A stretch of 64,000 bases of DNA from Streptomyces rugosispiralis (GTDB lineage Bacteria; Actinomycetota; Actinomycetes; Streptomycetales; Streptomycetaceae): the NCBI RefSeq assembly GCF_024505145.1, contig NZ_JANIAA010000024.1:1-64000 (forward strand), read 5' to 3'. Under the pieces are notes generated by a model. It did not search any database. It saw only the letters and a program-made list of their open reading frames with translations, and had not been told where the DNA came from. The position numbers were made by a program, and so were the translations under genes. Positions 40,562 through 47,563 of the stretch are shown here, in pieces (the first letter of the stretch is position 1; each line of letters opens with the position of its first letter).

Positions 40562-43093
40562 TCAGTCCGCCTTGAGGGCCGTGAGGATGTTCAGCCGGGC
40601 CGCCCGGCGGGCGGGCCAGAGCCCGGCGACCACTCCGACGAGCACGGCGCCCACGAGGGCCACGGCGATGCGGCCCCAGGGGACGACCATCTCGTACCCC
40701 TGGATGCTCTCGGAGGCGAGCTTGCCCGCGGCCCAGCCGAGGAAGATGCCCACACCGATGCCCAGCAGGGCCCCGAACAGCGAGATGAGCACGGACTCCA
40801 GATGGATCATCCGCTTCGTCTGCTCGGGCTGGAGCCCCACCGCGCGCAGCATCCCGATCTCACGGGTGCGCTCGAACACCGACATCGCGAGGGTGTTGAC
40901 GACTCCCAGGACCGCGATCACCACCGCCATGGCCAGCAGTCCGTAGAGGACGTTGAGGAGCAGTGTGATGGCCTCGCCACCGGCCGCCTCGGCCAGGTCG
41001 TCGGTGTTCCGCACCTGGATGAGGGGGTTCTGGTCGAGGATGCGCTGGAGGGAGTGGCGTGCCGCGTCGCCGTCACCGGCCTTGGTGCGCACCAGGACCG
41101 AAGCGTCCTCGGTCTCCTTGAGATGGGGCTGGAGCGTGGCCAGCGGCGTCATGGTGGACGGGAGGTATTCGTCGTCGTGGTAGACGCCACCGATCTCCAG
41201 CGAGCCCCGGCTGCCGTCGTCGTAGACCACCGGAACCCGCTGTCCCGTGGTCCATCCGTAGATGTCGGCGATGGAGGTGTCGATCAGCAGGTTCTTGCCC
41301 CCGCCCGAGTCCAGGGCGGCGAGCGAGCCCGAGACGAAGCTCGGGTCGAGGAGGTCGCCGATGGTCCGGGGGTTCACACCGGTCAGGGTCACCTCGTCGC
41401 CGCCGATCCGCACGGCGCCCTCGCGCCGCGGACTGGAGGAGGTCACGGCCGAGGACTTCGCCAGCGTGTCGTGGACCGACGCGGGCAGGTGGCCGCTGTT
41501 CTTCGACGAGATCTCGAAGTCGGCCGTGACGGAGCTCTCGGCCCGCTCGTGCAGCGATGTCGTGGCGGACACCGCGACCACCGTGAGGCCGGTGACCAGG
41601 GACAGCCCGATCATCAGGGCCGAGGCCGTGGAGGCGGTGCGCCGGGGGTTGCGCCGGGCGTTGCGCGGCGCCAGCGTGCCCGGGACACCGAAGCGCCGCA
41701 GCAGCGGTCCGGCCAGGTCGACGGCCGGGCCGGAGAGCGCGGGTGTCACCACGATGATGCCGATGAGCAGCAGGGCGGCCGGGAGGAGCACGATGGTGCT
41801 GCCCGACTCGCCGCTGGACGCCGCGAGCACCACGCCGAGCACACCGATCGCGATCAGGGCGACGCCGATCGCGTTGCGCCTGCGCAGGCCGCGGGCCGGC
41901 GGAGGCGTGTGGATCGCGGACATGGCGGCCACGGGAGGCACGGCGGCGGCGCGGCGGGCGGGCACATAGGCGGCGAGCATGGTGACGACGACGCCCACCA
42001 GGAACGAGATCAGTACGGTGCCGGGCGAGATGACCAACGGCCCGTCCGGGAAGCCGGATCCGGTGGACGCGAAGAGCTGCCGGATGCCCATGGCCACGCC
42101 GATGCCGAGGAGGAACCCCGCGGCGCCCGCGCACAGCCCCAGCAGGCCGGCCTCGACGAGGACGGAGCGGGTCACCTGGCGGCGCTCGGCGCCGACCGCC
42201 CGCATCAGGGCCATCTCCCGCGAACGCTGGGTGACGAGCATGGTGAAGGTGTTGCCGATGACGAAGATGCCGACGAACAGGGCGATGGCCGCGAAGACGA
42301 GCAGCACCTGGCTGAGCCCCCGCGTACCCTCGGCGGCCTCGGTCCGCTGCCGCTCGCGCAACTGCGCCCCGGTGCTGATGTCGGAGTCCTCGGGCAGCAG
42401 ATGGCGCGCTTCGGCCGCGAGCTTCGCCTCGGAGGTGCCGCGGTCGGCCTCGAGGGTGATTCCGCCGTACCGGCCGGGCTTCAGGAACAGCTTCTGCGCG
42501 GTGGCGTCGTCGAAGAGCGCCAGGGTGCCGCCGGAGCCGTGGGTGTCGTCGGTGCGGACGATGCCGACGAGCTTCTTGTGCAGCACCGGGCCGTCGACGG
42601 CCAGCCGGACGGTGTCGCCGACCCGGTAGCCACCCTGGTCGGCGGTGGCGGTGTCCAGCAGCACCTCGTCGGGCCCGGTGGGGGCGCGCCCGGCGGTCAG
42701 CGGGTGGCGGGTGTCCTTGCCGTCGGCCTGGGGGAAGTAGTTGCCCCCCGCGGTCACATGGTCCTCGCCGAGCGGGTGGCCGTCCTTCGCGGCCACCGCG
42801 GCGGACCCCTCGACGGAGCCGGTGACGGACGCCACGCCGGGCAGCCGTTGCAGGCGCCGCAGCGTGTCCTCCTCCACCGTTCCGGGCTCGCCGGTCTTCT
42901 CGTCGTAGGGCGGTATGGCCTGGACCGAGATATCGCGCAGGGTGGTGAGGAAGCGCTCCTTGTAGGCGTTGCCGACGGTGTCGGTGAAGACGAGGGTGCC
43001 CACGACGAAGGCGACGCCGAGCAGGACGGCGAGCATGGTCATCAGCAGGCGGGCTTTGTGCGCGAGGACGTTGCGCAGGGCGGTACGGAACAC
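40562..43093 (-). CDS. FtsX/MacB-type ABC transporter permease
   Basis: 843 residues. N-terminal helix (ALRNVLAHKARLLMTMLAVLLGVAFVVGTLVF), a large extracellular MacB-like periplasmic-core domain, a central FtsX block of three helices, then a second unit (TLAPRNARRNPRRTASTASAL) with another extracellular domain and a last FtsX block ending in ARLNILTALKAD. Such permeases do not import solutes; they extrude or move molecules at the membrane, for example lipoproteins or peptide antibiotics. The ATPase gene is immediately upstream, across a 17-bp tandem repeat. Confidence 0.9.
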   Translation of the reverse strand: MFRTALRNVLAHKARLLMTMLAVLLGVAFVVGTLVFTDTVGNAYKERFLTTLRDISVQAIPPYDEKTGEPGTVEEDTLRRLQRLPGVASVTGSVEGSAAVAAKDGHPLGEDHVTAGGNYFPQADGKDTRHPLTAGRAPTGPDEVLLDTATADQGGYRVGDTVRLAVDGPVLHKKLVGIVRTDDTHGSGGTLALFDDATAQKLFLKPGRYGGITLEADRGTSEAKLAAEARHLLPEDSDISTGAQLRERQRTEAAEGTRGLSQVLLVFAAIALFVGIFVIGNTFTMLVTQRSREMALMRAVGAERRQVTRSVLVEAGLLGLCAGAAGFLLGIGVAMGIRQLFASTGSGFPDGPLVISPGTVLISFLVGVVVTMLAAYVPARRAAAVPPVAAMSAIHTPPPARGLRRRNAIGVALIAIGVLGVVLAASSGESGSTIVLLPAALLLIGIIVVTPALSGPAVDLAGPLLRRFGVPGTLAPRNARRNPRRTASTASALMIGLSLVTGLTVVAVSATTSLHERAESSVTADFEISSKNSGHLPASVHDTLAKSSAVTSSSPRREGAVRIGGDEVTLTGVNPRTIGDLLDPSFVSGSLAALDSGGGKNLLIDTSIADIYGWTTGQRVPVVYDDGSRGSLEIGGVYHDDEYLPSTMTPLATLQPHLKETEDASVLVRTKAGDGDAARHSLQRILDQNPLIQVRNTDDLAEAAGGEAITLLLNVLYGLLAMAVVIAVLGVVNTLAMSVFERTREIGMLRAVGLQPEQTKRMIHLESVLISLFGALLGIGVGIFLGWAAGKLASESIQGYEMVVPWGRIAVALVGAVLVGVVAGLWPARRAARLNILTALKAD

Positions 43094-43168: not shown

Positions 43169-43254
43169 CAGGCGTACGCGGTCGGTCAGGCGTACGCGGG
43201 CGTCAGGCGTACGCGGTCGTCAGGCGTACGCGGTCGTCAGGCGTACGCGGTCGT
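43169..43254. repeat. 17-bp tandem repeat between ABC ATPase and permease genes
   Basis: Five units of CAGGCGTACGCGGTCGT (first 18 bp) start at 43169, 43187, 43204, 43221 and 43238; a diverged sixth at 43255 is inside the ATPase gene end. Every unit contains the palindrome GCGTACGC. The array fills most of the gap between ATPase stop and permease start. Confidence 0.95.
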
Positions 43255-44018
43255 CAGGCGTGCGCCGGGGTCAGGCGGCCCATGCGCTCCAGGACGGCCT
43301 CGGCCGTGGGCGCGTGGAGTTCGTCCACGATGCGGCCGTCGGCGAGGAACACCACGCGGTCCGCGTAGGAGGCGGCGACGGGGTCATGGGTGACCATCAC
43401 GACGGTCTGGCCCAGCGCGCTCACGGAGCCGCGCAGGAACTCGAGGATCTCGGCGCCGCTGCGGGAGTCGAGGTTGCCGGTGGGCTCGTCGGCGAAGACG
43501 ATGTCGGGCCGCCCGGCCAGCGCGCGGGCCACGGCCACGCGCTGCTGCTGGCCGCCGGAGAGCTGGGCGGGCCGGTGGCCGAGCCGGTCGGCCAGGCCGA
43601 CGGTCTGGATGATGCTCTCCAGCCAGGCCCGCTCCGGTTTGCGGCCCGCGATGTCCATGGGGAGGGTGATGTTCTCCAGGGCGCTCAGGGTGGGCAGCAG
43701 GTTGAACGCCTGGAAGACGAAGCCGATGCGGTCGCGGCGCAGCCGGGTGAGCTGACGGTTGTTCAGGGAGCCGATCTCCGTGTCGCCGATGCGGACCGAG
43801 CCGAAGGACGGCGAGTCGAGACCGGCCATGCAGTGCATGAGGGTGGACTTCCCCGACCCGGACGGCCCCATGATCGCGGTGAACCGTCCCTTGCCGAAGC
43901 CGACCGTGACCGCGTCGAGGGCCACCACACGGGTGTCCCCCGTGCCGTACACCTTCGTCAGGTCGGTGGCGTGGGCCGCGTAGAGCTCCGGGGCGGAAGA
44001 GGGCTGGTGTGCGTGCAT
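43254..44018 (-). CDS. ABC transporter ATPase, MacB/LolD type
   Basis: 254 residues. Walker A GPSGSGKS, Q-loop FVFQAFNLLPTLS, signature LSGGQQQRVAVARAL, Walker B IVFADEPTGNLD, and switch histidine in VTHDP. The length and the FNLLPTL stretch are typical of the export subfamily that pairs with FtsX-like permeases. Start ATG 44018; longer frames upstream are not supported by homology. It is downstream of the response regulator gene on the same strand, separated by 225 bp that contain a 24-bp repeated sequence. Confidence 0.92.
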   Translation of the reverse strand: MHAHQPSSAPELYAAHATDLTKVYGTGDTRVVALDAVTVGFGKGRFTAIMGPSGSGKSTLMHCMAGLDSPSFGSVRIGDTEIGSLNNRQLTRLRRDRIGFVFQAFNLLPTLSALENITLPMDIAGRKPERAWLESIIQTVGLADRLGHRPAQLSGGQQQRVAVARALAGRPDIVFADEPTGNLDSRSGAEILEFLRGSVSALGQTVVMVTHDPVAASYADRVVFLADGRIVDELHAPTAEAVLERMGRLTPAHA

Positions 44019-44243
44019 GCCGATCCTCGGTGAGCGCTCGGTGGATGACCCTCGTGGCGGAGGGCGTCGCCGCTGATGGCGACACCCATGAGCCTCTCGC
44101 TCGGCCACCCCCGCGCGGATCCCCCGACCATCCGGAGCCGCCTCCCCCGATCGGGGGAGATCAGCGCGGGACCGCTGCTCCGCGCGCCCGCGGAATCACT
44201 CCCCCCGCCCGCGCGACCGCTCTCCCGCCCGCCCGCGGGACCG

Positions 44244-44894
44244 CTACTCCGCGCGCCCCGTGCGGAAGGCCCAGGCCGCGACCTCGACCCTGTTGCGCAG
44301 GCCCAGCTTCGCCTGGACCGAGCCCAGATGGGTCTTGACCGTGCTGGGCGCGATGTACAGCTCGGCGGCGATCTCCGGGTTGGTCAGTCCGCGGGCGATG
44401 CCCTGGATGACCTCCTCCTCGCGGTCGGTCAGCGGCTCGGCCGGCTCGTGTGCGGCGCGCCGCCGGCTCTTGGTGAAGTGCTGGAGCAGCCGCAGGGTGA
44501 TCTGCGGGGCGACCATCGCGTCCCCGCGGACGGCCGCCCGCACGGCCTCGGTGAGCAGCGCCGGACCGGCGTCCTTGAGGAGGAATCCCGACGCTCCGTT
44601 CGACAGCGCCGTGTACACGTACTCATCGAGGTCGAAGGTGGTGACCACGACCACCTTCGGGGCGCCGGGCCGACCGCCGCCGGCCAGCCGGCGGGTGACC
44701 TCGAGACCGTCGGGCGGGGGCATCCGGATGTCCACGAGGCACACGTCCGGCTGGGTCTCGCGGGCCAGCGACAGGGCCGAGGCCCCGTCGGCGGCCTCGG
44801 CCACCACCTCCATGCCGGGCTCGGCCGACAGCACCATGCGGAACCCGGCCCGCACCAGATGCTGATCGTCCGCGACCAGGATGCGTATGGTCAT
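44244..44894 (-). CDS. NarL/LuxR-type response regulator
   Basis: 216 residues. Receiver domain (ILVADDQHLVRAG; phospho-Asp in CLVDIRMPPPD; GFLLKDA) and LuxR helix-turn-helix (LTDREEEVIQGIARGLTNPEIAAEL). It overlaps the kinase gene by 4 nt (ATGA, 44891-44894). The ABC ATPase and permease genes lie downstream on the same strand and are likely targets or members of the same functional unit. Confidence 0.93.
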   Translation of the reverse strand: MTIRILVADDQHLVRAGFRMVLSAEPGMEVVAEAADGASALSLARETQPDVCLVDIRMPPPDGLEVTRRLAGGGRPGAPKVVVVTTFDLDEYVYTALSNGASGFLLKDAGPALLTEAVRAAVRGDAMVAPQITLRLLQHFTKSRRRAAHEPAEPLTDREEEVIQGIARGLTNPEIAAELYIAPSTVKTHLGSVQAKLGLRNRVEVAAWAFRTGRAE

Positions 44895-46204
44895 GCCGTC
44901 CTGCCCTCCCGTAGCCGCAACCCGGTCCGTACGGCGTGCCGCCCGCGTGTCCGCGGGGTGCGCGCGGCCTCGTCGGGGCGCAGCGGTACGGAGGCGCGGA
45001 CCCGCCATCCGCCTTCGGCCCGGTGGCCCGCCTCGAAGGCGCCGCCGAGCAGTTCGACCCGCTCCCGCATGCCCATGATGCCGAAGCCGCCGCCGAGCCG
45101 GCCGAGGTTGCCGCGGTGTCCGGACGTGGAGCCGTGTCCGTCGTCCTCCACGACCAGTTCGGCATGGTGTGCCGCCACCCGGGCGGACACGTCCACCGAC
45201 CGCACTCCGCGCGCATAGCGCTGGGCGTTGGTCAGGGCCTCCTGAAGGACGCGGCTCAGCCCGCCGGTGACCTCGGCCGGTACGTCCTCCGGCAGATCCC
45301 GCCCGAGGTCCAGCCGGACCGGCAGCCCCGTCCCCCGTGCCTCCTCGACGATGCGGCTCAGGACCTCGCCCAGGTTCTCCGGATGCCGCGGGGTCTCGTC
45401 CCCGCGCATCGAGCCCACCAGGCGCCGCATGGATGTCAGCGCCTCGCCGCCCGCGTTCTCGACGGCCTCGAGCATCTCGTTCAGCGCCCGCGGGTCGGGG
45501 GTGCCCCGCCCGGTGACATGGCGCACGGCCTGCAACTGCACCACGATCGCGGTCACCTGGTGGGCCACGGTGTCATGCAGGTCCCGGGCCAGCGCGAGCC
45601 GTTCCTCCTGCCGCACCAGCTGTCCGGTGCGTTCCTGCTGGACGTCGTAGAGCCGCAGCACCAGCCCGCAGACGAAGGCCAGCGCCAGCAACAGCCCGGT
45701 GTTGTCGGAGAAGTCACCGGGATCGGTGTCCCGCAGGAGCGGGACGGAGAACACGCTGACGCTCATCGCCGCCACGGACACCAGGGCCGGCCAGGGCGTG
45801 CAGCGCCGCACCCCCACGGCGAGGAGGAACAGCAGGCCCATCATTTCGGTGCCGCTGGACTCGCTGGTCACCATGTTCACCGGCATCAGGTGATAGGCGA
45901 CCGTGGCCGCGAAGGTGCCGGCACAGGCCACCAGCGCGGCCCGCGGGACCCATCGGACATCGCGTACGACGGCCAGCACGGCCATCGCCCCGGCCAGGAC
46001 CCCGGAAGCGATCGGCGCCCAGTCCCCGGCGAACGCCTCCGTGTCGACGTTCGGGTCGAGGACGAGCCGTTCCCGCACGTCCGCGTAGACGTTGAAGAGG
46101 AACCACAGCGCCAGCGCGGCAATCACGGCCCGCCCCGGCAAACGTCGGTATCCGGCGCGTCGGCCGGAGGACACAGCTATTCGCACCCGCGCCACCCTAC
46201 GCAC
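44891..46204 (-). CDS. Sensor histidine kinase, NarL-system type
   Basis: 437 residues. Five or six membrane segments with an extracytoplasmic loop (about residues 45-65, ADVRERLVLDPNVDTEAFAG), a HisKA_3 helix with phosphoacceptor in ALARDLHDTVAHQVTAIV, and an HATPase domain (VLQEALTNAQRYA, DDGHG, GGGFGIMGMRER). The GTG at 46204 follows directly on the stop codon of the small upstream gene with no gap, so the two are translationally linked. Several in-frame GTG codons make the exact start uncertain. Confidence 0.9.
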   Translation of the reverse strand: MRRVARVRIAVSSGRRAGYRRLPGRAVIAALALWFLFNVYADVRERLVLDPNVDTEAFAGDWAPIASGVLAGAMAVLAVVRDVRWVPRAALVACAGTFAATVAYHLMPVNMVTSESSGTEMMGLLFLLAVGVRRCTPWPALVSVAAMSVSVFSVPLLRDTDPGDFSDNTGLLLALAFVCGLVLRLYDVQQERTGQLVRQEERLALARDLHDTVAHQVTAIVVQLQAVRHVTGRGTPDPRALNEMLEAVENAGGEALTSMRRLVGSMRGDETPRHPENLGEVLSRIVEEARGTGLPVRLDLGRDLPEDVPAEVTGGLSRVLQEALTNAQRYARGVRSVDVSARVAAHHAELVVEDDGHGSTSGHRGNLGRLGGGFGIMGMRERVELLGGAFEAGHRAEGGWRVRASVPLRPDEAARTPRTRGRHAVRTGLRLREGRTA

Positions 46205-46495
46205 CTACGGCGGCGATTGCCGCCCACCTCCGGCGCCGGGCCGCGCGCCCGGTCCCACGCCCGGTCCCGCGCCCCGGCCCCGGCCCGGGTCGGTGGGCAT
46301 GGGCGCGGGCCGTGCGTCGCGCACCCGCTCCGGTGTCCAGTACGAGGGGTCCGGCGGATCCGCGCGATGGGTCCGTGGGGTGTCCGGGCCGGGCGGATCG
46401 CCGGTGTCGTCGCCCCGGGCGGTGACGGCGAGGGCCGCGACGATGCCGGTTCCCACGACCGCCGCGGTGATGAGGACTGCGGTGAGCGGGCGCAT
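46205..46495 (-). CDS. Small membrane-anchored protein carrying a protease-propeptide-like YWTPERV motif
   Basis: 96 residues, family not recognised. An N-terminal hydrophobic segment (about 5-25) would anchor or export it; the rest is extracytoplasmic and proline/glycine-rich. Residues 52-58, YWTPERV, followed by RDARP, closely match residues 59-65, YWTPQRM, of the secreted trypsin-like protease encoded just upstream, where they lie in the propeptide. ATG 46495 has GGGAGA upstream, and the stop touches the kinase start, so the gene is likely real and co-expressed with the kinase. It may act as a detached propeptide, inhibitor or sensor for the protease; this is inference. Confidence 0.75.
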   Translation of the reverse strand: MRPLTAVLITAAVVGTGIVAALAVTARGDDTGDPPGPDTPRTHRADPPDPSYWTPERVRDARPAPMPTDPGRGRGAGPGVGPGARPGAGGGRQSPP

Positions 46496-46585
46496 GACGT
46501 TTTCTCCCGATGGTGGGGCGCTGCGGATGCCGGAGGCCGGGACCCCTGAGTGCGGGGCCCCGGCCGACTGCGGTGGGTGCGGTGC

Positions 46586-47563
46586 TCAGCCGTTGGCGGT
46601 GTTGTTGTAGATCGTCTGGATCTTGTTGTCGAAGTAGGGGCTGTCGATGTAGGCGGGCGGATCGGTCCGGGTGCTGGTGACGCCGATCTCGGTCCCCAGG
46701 CCCGTGGTCTCGTTGTAGTCCCGCAGCCAGGGGCCGCCGCTGGCGCCCTCGACCATGGTGCATCCGTTCTGCACCCGGGAGCCGTCCTGCCACGTGGGGA
46801 TGTTCTGGCACACGTAGGGCACTTCGCCGTCGTAGCCGAAGGCGGCCGGATAGCCCCAGACGGTCACGGTGTTGGAGTACCCGTAGTTGTAGCCGAGCCC
46901 CATGCCGCCGACGGTGTCGACCAGCTTGCCGGCGCCGTTGTCCCAGACGTTGACCACGCCGATGTCGTAGTTGAGGTCGCTGTTGTTGATCCAGCCGTTG
47001 AACGTGGTCAGCGTCTTGGCGGACCAGGTTCCGTACGGCCGCGAGCCGTTGTAGTAGGCGGGCACGAACACCCAGTTGGTGGCCCAGGTGCCACCGGCGC
47101 CACCGTGGACGCAGTGCCCCGCGGTGAACACCATGTTCTTCGTGGGATTGTTGACCGCCGCGGCGGAGCAGGCGTAGTCGCCGCCGTTGGTCGGGTTGTG
47201 GAAGAAGACCTTGCCCTGCACGATCGAGGTGGCGATCCGCACCCCGCGGGCCTTCTTCGAGGTGGCCTTCTGCGGTTTCGCGAGCTGAGCGGGTTCGGCC
47301 GCCGCGTCGACGGCCGCCTTCCGGGACGCCTTGGCGTCGGCGGGCGTGTCGGCCTCGACGGCTCTGCGCATACGCTGCGGGGTCCAGTAATCCTCGGCGG
47401 ACTCCGCTGATGAGCGGGACGCGGCACTCTTGTGCGTGGACACCGCGGTGTCCACGCTGTGTGTGACGGTGCTGTGCGTATCGGCGGACGCGGCCGCCGG
47501 AATCGTCAGGGCGAATGCGAAAACCACTCCGCTCGCCGCTAAAACGACCTTGCGTATCTGCAC
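46586..47563 (-). CDS. Secreted trypsin-like serine protease with propeptide
   Basis: 325 residues. A signal peptide (cleaved near AAASA) is followed by a propeptide with YWTPQRM (59-65) and a basic stretch (KKARGVR), then a chymotrypsin-fold domain. The catalytic triad is visible: His in FTAGHCVHG, Asp in NYDIGVVNV, Ser in VEGASGGPW. GTG 47563 is preferred (GGGGGGA upstream) over a TTG four codons earlier. Codon 8 is TTA (47542-47540), so translation should depend on the bldA leucyl-tRNA, tying it to development. It is followed by the small YWTPERV protein and the kinase-regulator pair. Confidence 0.9.
   Translation of the reverse strand: MQIRKVVLAASGVVFAFALTIPAAASADTHSTVTHSVDTAVSTHKSAASRSSAESAEDYWTPQRMRRAVEADTPADAKASRKAAVDAAAEPAQLAKPQKATSKKARGVRIATSIVQGKVFFHNPTNGGDYACSAAAVNNPTKNMVFTAGHCVHGGAGGTWATNWVFVPAYYNGSRPYGTWSAKTLTTFNGWINNSDLNYDIGVVNVWDNGAGKLVDTVGGMGLGYNYGYSNTVTVWGYPAAFGYDGEVPYVCQNIPTWQDGSRVQNGCTMVEGASGGPWLRDYNETTGLGTEIGVTSTRTDPPAYIDSPYFDNKIQTIYNNTANG

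Follow-up and report, generated by a model that had tools for sequence, protein, structure and literature searches.

The nearest published kind of system that we found is SUB1-ProM of Plasmodium, which the relevant passages of PMC6993865 describe as a stand-alone, subtilisin propeptide-like inhibitor found in the parasitophorous vacuole; it has a gene of its own, in synteny with the genes for its proteases. The locus considered here, from Streptomyces rugosispiralis, likewise includes a separate gene that encodes a propeptide-like protein and is syntenic with a protease gene; SUB1-ProM inhibits its protease. According to the same passages, SUB1-ProM is subtilase prodomain-like, whereas the protein from our window (the whole 64,000-nucleotide stretch of DNA analysed) is bacterial, has an S1 protease as its partner, carries a motif of roughly 16 residues instead of a domain, possesses a predicted membrane anchor and has a putative inhibitor role. 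Beside SUB1-ProM it would be a minimal, tethered relative in kind that pairs with an S1 protease. The cathepsin propeptide-like inhibitors (MEROPS I29; crammer) are also propeptide-like proteins that act in trans on a protease, as stated in the passages of PMC6010012 and PMC3551606 that deal with them, but these inhibitors are directed to cysteine cathepsins of eukaryotes, and those passages mention no membrane anchor.

With regard to the enzyme, the actinobacterial S1 proteases AL20 (3cp7) and Anisep (3wy8) and the V8/GEP/Esp enzymes have the same catalytic fold as the window protease. However, only residues 110-325 of the model are covered by the alignments with AL20 and Anisep, so that the propeptide falls outside them, and no partner protein appears in the titles of these entries. 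A search of the open-licence PMC literature returned no description of YWTPERM, or of YWTPE together with Streptomyces, and no published account of a family-wide propeptide motif or of such a protease/small-protein system.

Organization of the window locus

All of the genes discussed here lie on the minus strand. The first encodes a secreted S1 (trypsin/V8-like) serine protease of 325 aa with a GTG start (46586-47563), which is 96% identical to the protease of S. iranensis. Its assignment to the S1 (PA clan) peptidases is based on H150, D200 and S275, each conserved in at least 90% of 54 aligned sequences; in addition, PF00089 scored 22.6 bits against a cut-off of 20.6, and PF13365 remained below its cut-off. 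The best fold matches of the catalytic part were AL20 (3cp7, Z 30.2) and Anisep (3wy8, 29.7), followed by GEP, V8 and Esp at about 20-24, in comparisons that mostly cover model residues 108-325 and leave the propeptide outside. The propeptide carries the motif YWTPQRM at residues 59-65, counted from the GTG at 47563 (47369-47389).

The protease stop codon ends at 46586, which is 90 bases upstream of the ATG (46495) of a gene for a small protein of 96 aa with a predicted membrane anchor (46205-46495, TAG at 46205-46207), for which orthologues were found. This gene has its own ribosome-binding site, GGGAG (46504-46508), located 8 bases before the ATG and retained in those clade sequences that keep the 5' end of the gene. 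Based on hydropathy, residues 7-24 (46424-46477) form a predicted N-in anchor. The propeptide-like motif YWTPERV occupies residues 52-58 (46322-46342) and is followed by a PAPMP element (46295-46309), which is typical of the small proteins, whereas the proteases usually have P-[AL]-D at this place. Thus, the two motifs, the 90-bp spacing and the separate ribosome site, all reported in the original prediction, were confirmed on re-reading. Neither Pfam nor NCBIfam yielded a family for the small protein up to E 1, and a Pfam search of the inhibitor families I9 and I29 with this protein and three relatives gave no match up to E 1.

The TAG of the small gene directly abuts the GTG (46204) of a HisKA_3 sensor kinase gene (44891-46204), as originally described, and all 9 aligned clade sequences keep the TAGGTG junction. 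Since there are four in-frame GTGs at the 5' end of the kinase gene, its start is uncertain, and that it begins exactly where the small gene stops is a guess of the annotation. The 3' end of this small gene contains an inverted repeat (46209-46224; GGCGGC-GATT-GCCGCC on the plus strand), which is kept in the same 9 sequences, remnants included; G108 and S. samsunensis show one or two changes in it. The kinase is followed by a LuxR/NarL-type response regulator (44244-44894), the ATG of which overlaps the kinase stop (ATGA), by an ABC transporter ATPase (43254-44108; PF00005) and by an FtsX/MacB-type permease (40562-43093; PF02687, PF12704). A HisKA_3/NarL two-component system with a MacB/FtsX ABC transporter is a common layout, and the downstream genes of the window match it.

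The YWTPxR motif is a hallmark of the protease propeptide

As a DNA pattern, WTP[EQ][RS] occurred at 19 places in the 11-Mb genome versus 9 for the pattern read backwards, and, by eye, only the window protease and the small gene among these 19 places had YWTPxR after a secretion-type N-terminus. A longer YWT pattern was found at 103 places in 74 of 295 same-genus genomes versus 9 when reversed (103 and 9 being hand counts). Chance does not account for the motif. We read 100 loci for motif occurrences (L087-L186), 96 of them at YWT-pattern places and four at small-protein matches. Scoring assigned 71 occurrences to proteases, 14 to positions near a C-terminus and 15 to other contexts. Hand review gave 73 proteases, 11 small anchored proteins and 16 unrelated or chance occurrences; two loci scored as other (L087 and L144) hold, by eye, a protease or a broken protease, and the near-C-terminal occurrences apart from those of L146, L177 and L183 (11 of 14) belong to anchored small proteins. 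A general motif of secreted proteins, which the original prediction had named as one result that would undo it, was rejected on these counts, and within the loci read YWTPxR is specific to this protease family and the small proteins.

A profile built from an alignment of seven proteases was used to search genome contigs, and the best 80 matches were taken as named protease homologues. They come mostly from actinobacteria, plus two Myxococcota, two Chloroflexota and a Kurthia MAG. The motif or a variant of it was present in 79 of these best 80 homologues (77 by pattern, L236 and L261 as variants), L282 being the one without it. In the alignment of 54 sequences (53 of the 80 named loci and the window; a further alignment dropped five of those), W60 was invariant (54/54), T61, R64, M65 and A68 were each conserved at 90% or more, and the consensus for the proteases was YWTPERMxxA[VI]P[AL]D. 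The distance from the motif to the catalytic GHC was 62-118 residues in 120 of 121 proteases and 181 residues in the remaining one. The YWTPxR motif is thus a hallmark of the propeptide in this family of secreted S1 proteases. Five loci (L087, L104, L140, L145 and L170) represent, by eye, a second, long class of motif-bearing proteases with WSDGELTLY-type repeats C-terminal of the S1 domain.

The full protease was modelled by AlphaFold2 with a pTM of 0.83. Mean pLDDT was 94 over residues 61-70, with a helix at 62-67, and over residues 91-100, with a strand at 92-95; residues 1-36, including the signal peptide, were of low confidence. When the propeptide was modelled alone, the pTM was 0.26, and the block matching residues 90-99 fell to 68 and had no strand. 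We read these differences in confidence and secondary structure as an indication that the propeptide may order on the catalytic domain. The motif block stayed at 87 in the propeptide-alone model, and a helix that is confident without the catalytic domain counts against the docking of the motif.

Small anchored proteins and their genomic neighbours

The layout of the small protein was the same in all 22 members examined: a hydrophobic N-terminal segment with a net-positive N-side, a linker of 23-39 aa (65 in one case) and the motif near the C-terminus, with a total length of 64-123 aa. By eye, the Cryobacterium luteum protein has a lipobox (LTAC) in its anchor, and a weaker lipobox is possible in that of G038; for some small proteins, the hydrophobic N-terminus may be a signal peptide that is removed. 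In the clade, the length of the linker (46370-46393 in the window; also L113 and L127) differs by whole APDTPR-type repeats. After the motif, the small proteins tend to P-A-P-M-P and the proteases to P-[AL]-D; motif position 13 is P in 78% of the small-protein rows (18 of 20 reach it) versus D in 62% of 121 proteases. Homology to the propeptide of the protease in a protein with no catalytic domain, the sequence trait of stand-alone propeptide-like protease inhibitors, was thus found, although the similarity spans only about 16-30 residues.

Within the clade, the small ORF had a pN/pS of 0.66 (six members), compared with 0.21 in the protease gene and 0.35 in the kinase gene. Strong purifying selection over the whole small ORF was rejected, given this value and the variation of the linker and tail. 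Such a loose ratio, together with the extended segment around the motif that some small proteins have in common with proteases, is what would be expected if the small genes were 5' fragments of protease genes kept by chance. We consider this origin extremely improbable, since small proteins from divergent genera resemble one another in length, anchor and linker, and often in the PMP element as well, and the small-protein motif is similar to that of the neighbouring protease. The conservation of the small ORF that had been predicted was borne out by the recurrence of anchored motif proteins in actinobacteria.

Among the 295 same-genus genomes, the small gene lies directly downstream in 11 of the 12 best protease matches (five kinase-bearing clade members and G092, G030, G285, G188, G157, G058 and G038), the exception being G188:C148. 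By hand tally, at least 24 small genes are present in 24 of these genomes, remnants apart, and 16 of the 24 listed adjoin an S1 protease gene: 11 on the same strand, three convergent (G188:C93, G237 and G210), one divergent (G035), and G142. The latter has an intact small gene beside a protease fragment, which counts against the role proposed below, and G237 was counted with the protease's own motif unread. The other eight (G252, G104, G220, G049, G097, G211, G239 and G213) have no such protease beside them. Together with the motif in 79 of the 80 best homologues, these figures uphold the predicted propeptide-like character of the small protein and its link to a trypsin-like protease.

In the set of named protease loci, the small gene is directly downstream in 16 of the best 80, one of which is frameshifted (L206) and three of which are weak by profile (L247, L250 and L255). 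The hosts are Streptomyces, Wenjunlia, Actinomadura hibisca, Cryobacterium, Renibacterium, Dermabacter and Micrococcales MAGs. Weak profile matches add Saccharothrix and Lentzea albida, and the Micrococcales small protein is weak by profile too. In a class-wide sample, 81 of 394 genomes matched the small-motif profile, proteases included. Of 30 loci examined there, 21 hold a small protein, and a protease was located within 1.5 kb of three of these, one being the window itself; the other 18 have no such protease within that distance. Judging from coordinates alone, protease-size and small-size motif frames also lie within about 1 kb in G296, G343 and G559 and within 2.4 kb in G632.

A single origin of the pairing was rejected. 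On a tree of 90 proteases, the 22 rows with a small gene need 11 changes (shuffled mean 19.8), and at least nine of these are forced by well-supported branches; the set is partly hand-drawn and has several long-branch rows, and the frameshifted L206 and the weak L247, L250 and L255 were counted as having the gene. Decay was also seen. The protease gene of S. samsunensis has lost its stop codon, and a frameshift interrupts the motif codons of the small gene there; in G253, unrelated sequence occupies the protease's place and the small gene is decayed; and G108 retains a 3' remnant of the small gene only. All three damaged small genes have lesions in the W-T-P-E codons, which is a small-number observation.

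Some orphan small genes share a setting. By eye, small motif proteins in one bacterial family, f17 (L289, L290, L297 and probably L284), are encoded by genes flanked by a menE-like acyl-CoA ligase ORF on one side and a principal-sigma-factor-like ORF on the other. A subgroup with the sequence GVSVxRETKSPxEIR..WTPER (L101, L126, L164, L187 and L188, from five genomes) sits, also by eye, between aldehyde-dehydrogenase-like and metallo-beta-lactamase-fold-like genes.

The original prediction coupled the small protein to the sensor kinase, so that it would report protease activity to the two-component system; this is favoured by the order of the genes and by the TAGGTG junction, both of which the clade conserves. 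Orthologues of the kinase are present in seven of the 295 genomes at 84% identity or more, and in one more at 55%. In three of these eight genomes (G253, G108 and G244), the kinase has neither the protease nor an intact small gene beside it, and the kinase and regulator stay with the ABC ATPase, so the kinase module is separable; in G108 and G253, the ATPase follows the kinase and regulator and is itself followed by the permease, and the whole HisKA_3/NarL and MacB/FtsX module stands without the pair. Conversely, the pair occurs without this kinase in six sample genomes (G092, G058, G157, G030, G285 and G038) and, within about 5 kb, in the Actinomadura, Cryobacterium, Dermabacter and Renibacterium records. 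S. diacarni (L212) is an exception of sorts, with a weak kinase match (6e-07) and a regulator match nearby on the opposite strand. The co-inheritance with the kinase that would mark the small protein as a sensor-kinase accessory was not found, and kinase coupling was rejected as a conserved feature; a role as input to the two-component system is very improbable. Judging from gene neighbourhoods, the sensor kinase is probably a neighbour in one Streptomyces clade and no working part of the protease/small-protein system. The proposed check for conserved neighbours thus held for the trypsin-like protease, beside 16 of the 24 listed small genes, but not for the NarL-type kinase, the link to which is not general.

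Putative role of the small protein

Based on the above results, we suggest that the small protein mimics, from a membrane tether, the docking element of the propeptide, and that it would bind the cognate protease and restrain or retain it. We infer the binding, and put the probability of this reading at roughly 0.5. In the zymogen, the motif helix would be packed against the catalytic domain, as would, perhaps within the substrate cleft, a second element of the propeptide (around residues 91-100). From its position on the outer side of the membrane, the small protein would take the place of the motif on its cognate protease and, being tethered, hold the enzyme at the cell surface and restrain its activity there. 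Such restraint would keep the newly secreted enzyme from attacking the envelope. The small protein may not block the active site, because it has no counterpart of the second propeptide element. Together with the PMP where the proteases have D, this absence points to a docking piece that would escape cleavage. Inhibition, retention and help in maturation are all candidate outcomes of its binding. Against the proposed role stand the small genes with no protease beside them, the loose pN/pS of the small ORF and the pairs mismatched at the first motif residue; the motif lesions of the three damaged small genes speak for it.

The absence of the second element, which orders only with the catalytic domain, from a protein that has the clamp motif would also suit an activator or release factor, in which case the small protein would dislodge the zymogen's cis motif at the membrane and speed the removal of the propeptide; the common same-strand gene order agrees with this as well. 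We regard it as unlikely, since the tether would confine activation to the producer's own membrane, although nothing directly separates activation from restraint.

The motifs of neighbours were compared in 16 non-redundant pairs (21 pairs read, five near-duplicates removed). Near-copies (other clade members, G030, G285, L204-L206 and L217), G237 (protease N-terminus unread) and L247 (weak motif) were kept out. The 7-residue cores of neighbours were more alike than those of shuffled pairings, with a mean BLOSUM62 score of 33.81 versus 30.44; a fraction of 0.00025 of 20,000 shuffles scored as high (p about 0.0003), and the value stayed at or below 0.003 with any one pair left out. The first motif residue was matched in Cryobacterium (F/F), G608 and G035 (H/H) and G188 (L/L) and mismatched in G038, S. 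neyagawaensis, Renibacterium, Micrococcales and G210. As a pattern in sequences, this similarity is what would be expected if neighbours coevolve on a single binding surface, or if the propeptide segment was repeatedly duplicated locally; shared descent could be its source too.

It is also conceivable that the motif is read by a third party, such as a processing protease, a foldase or an export factor, which the small protein competes for or recruits, in which case it need not touch the protease. One motif across proteases with differing C-terminal parts would be explained in this way, as would orphan small genes at recurring loci without a protease. The pair-specific similarity is better explained by the protease body as the partner, and we hold recognition by a third party to be rather improbable.

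Returning to the tethered mimic, a broader proposal can be made tentatively: actinobacteria may possess a widespread class of membrane-tethered propeptide-mimic peptides, which coevolve with individual secreted S1 zymogens and serve as leashes that catch the enzyme, once secreted, on the outer side of the membrane and determine the place and time of its release. Actinobacteria are heavy secretors of proteases, and to our knowledge, the question of how they keep their own envelope from being damaged is still open. If the proposed role is true, a minimal tethered peptide that repeats the docking motif of a zymogen would be a compact answer to this problem of self-protection. The family-wide propeptide motif would gain a testable site, and a motif peptide might serve in the tuning of recombinant protease production.

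The position downstream of the protease is occupied by other genes in some loci. In seven of the 80 named loci (L233, L240, L244, L254, L260, L262 and L272), a putative lipoprotein of 140-169 aa is encoded there instead. Two downstream putative lipoproteins were searched and matched no Pfam family above the cut-off. The seven belong to one family by mutual phmmer matches, with DCYG in six of them, and are possibly a second kind of anchored partner. A separate pair of 138-aa proteins is encoded in the same slot in L256 and L258, and L235 appears similar by eye.
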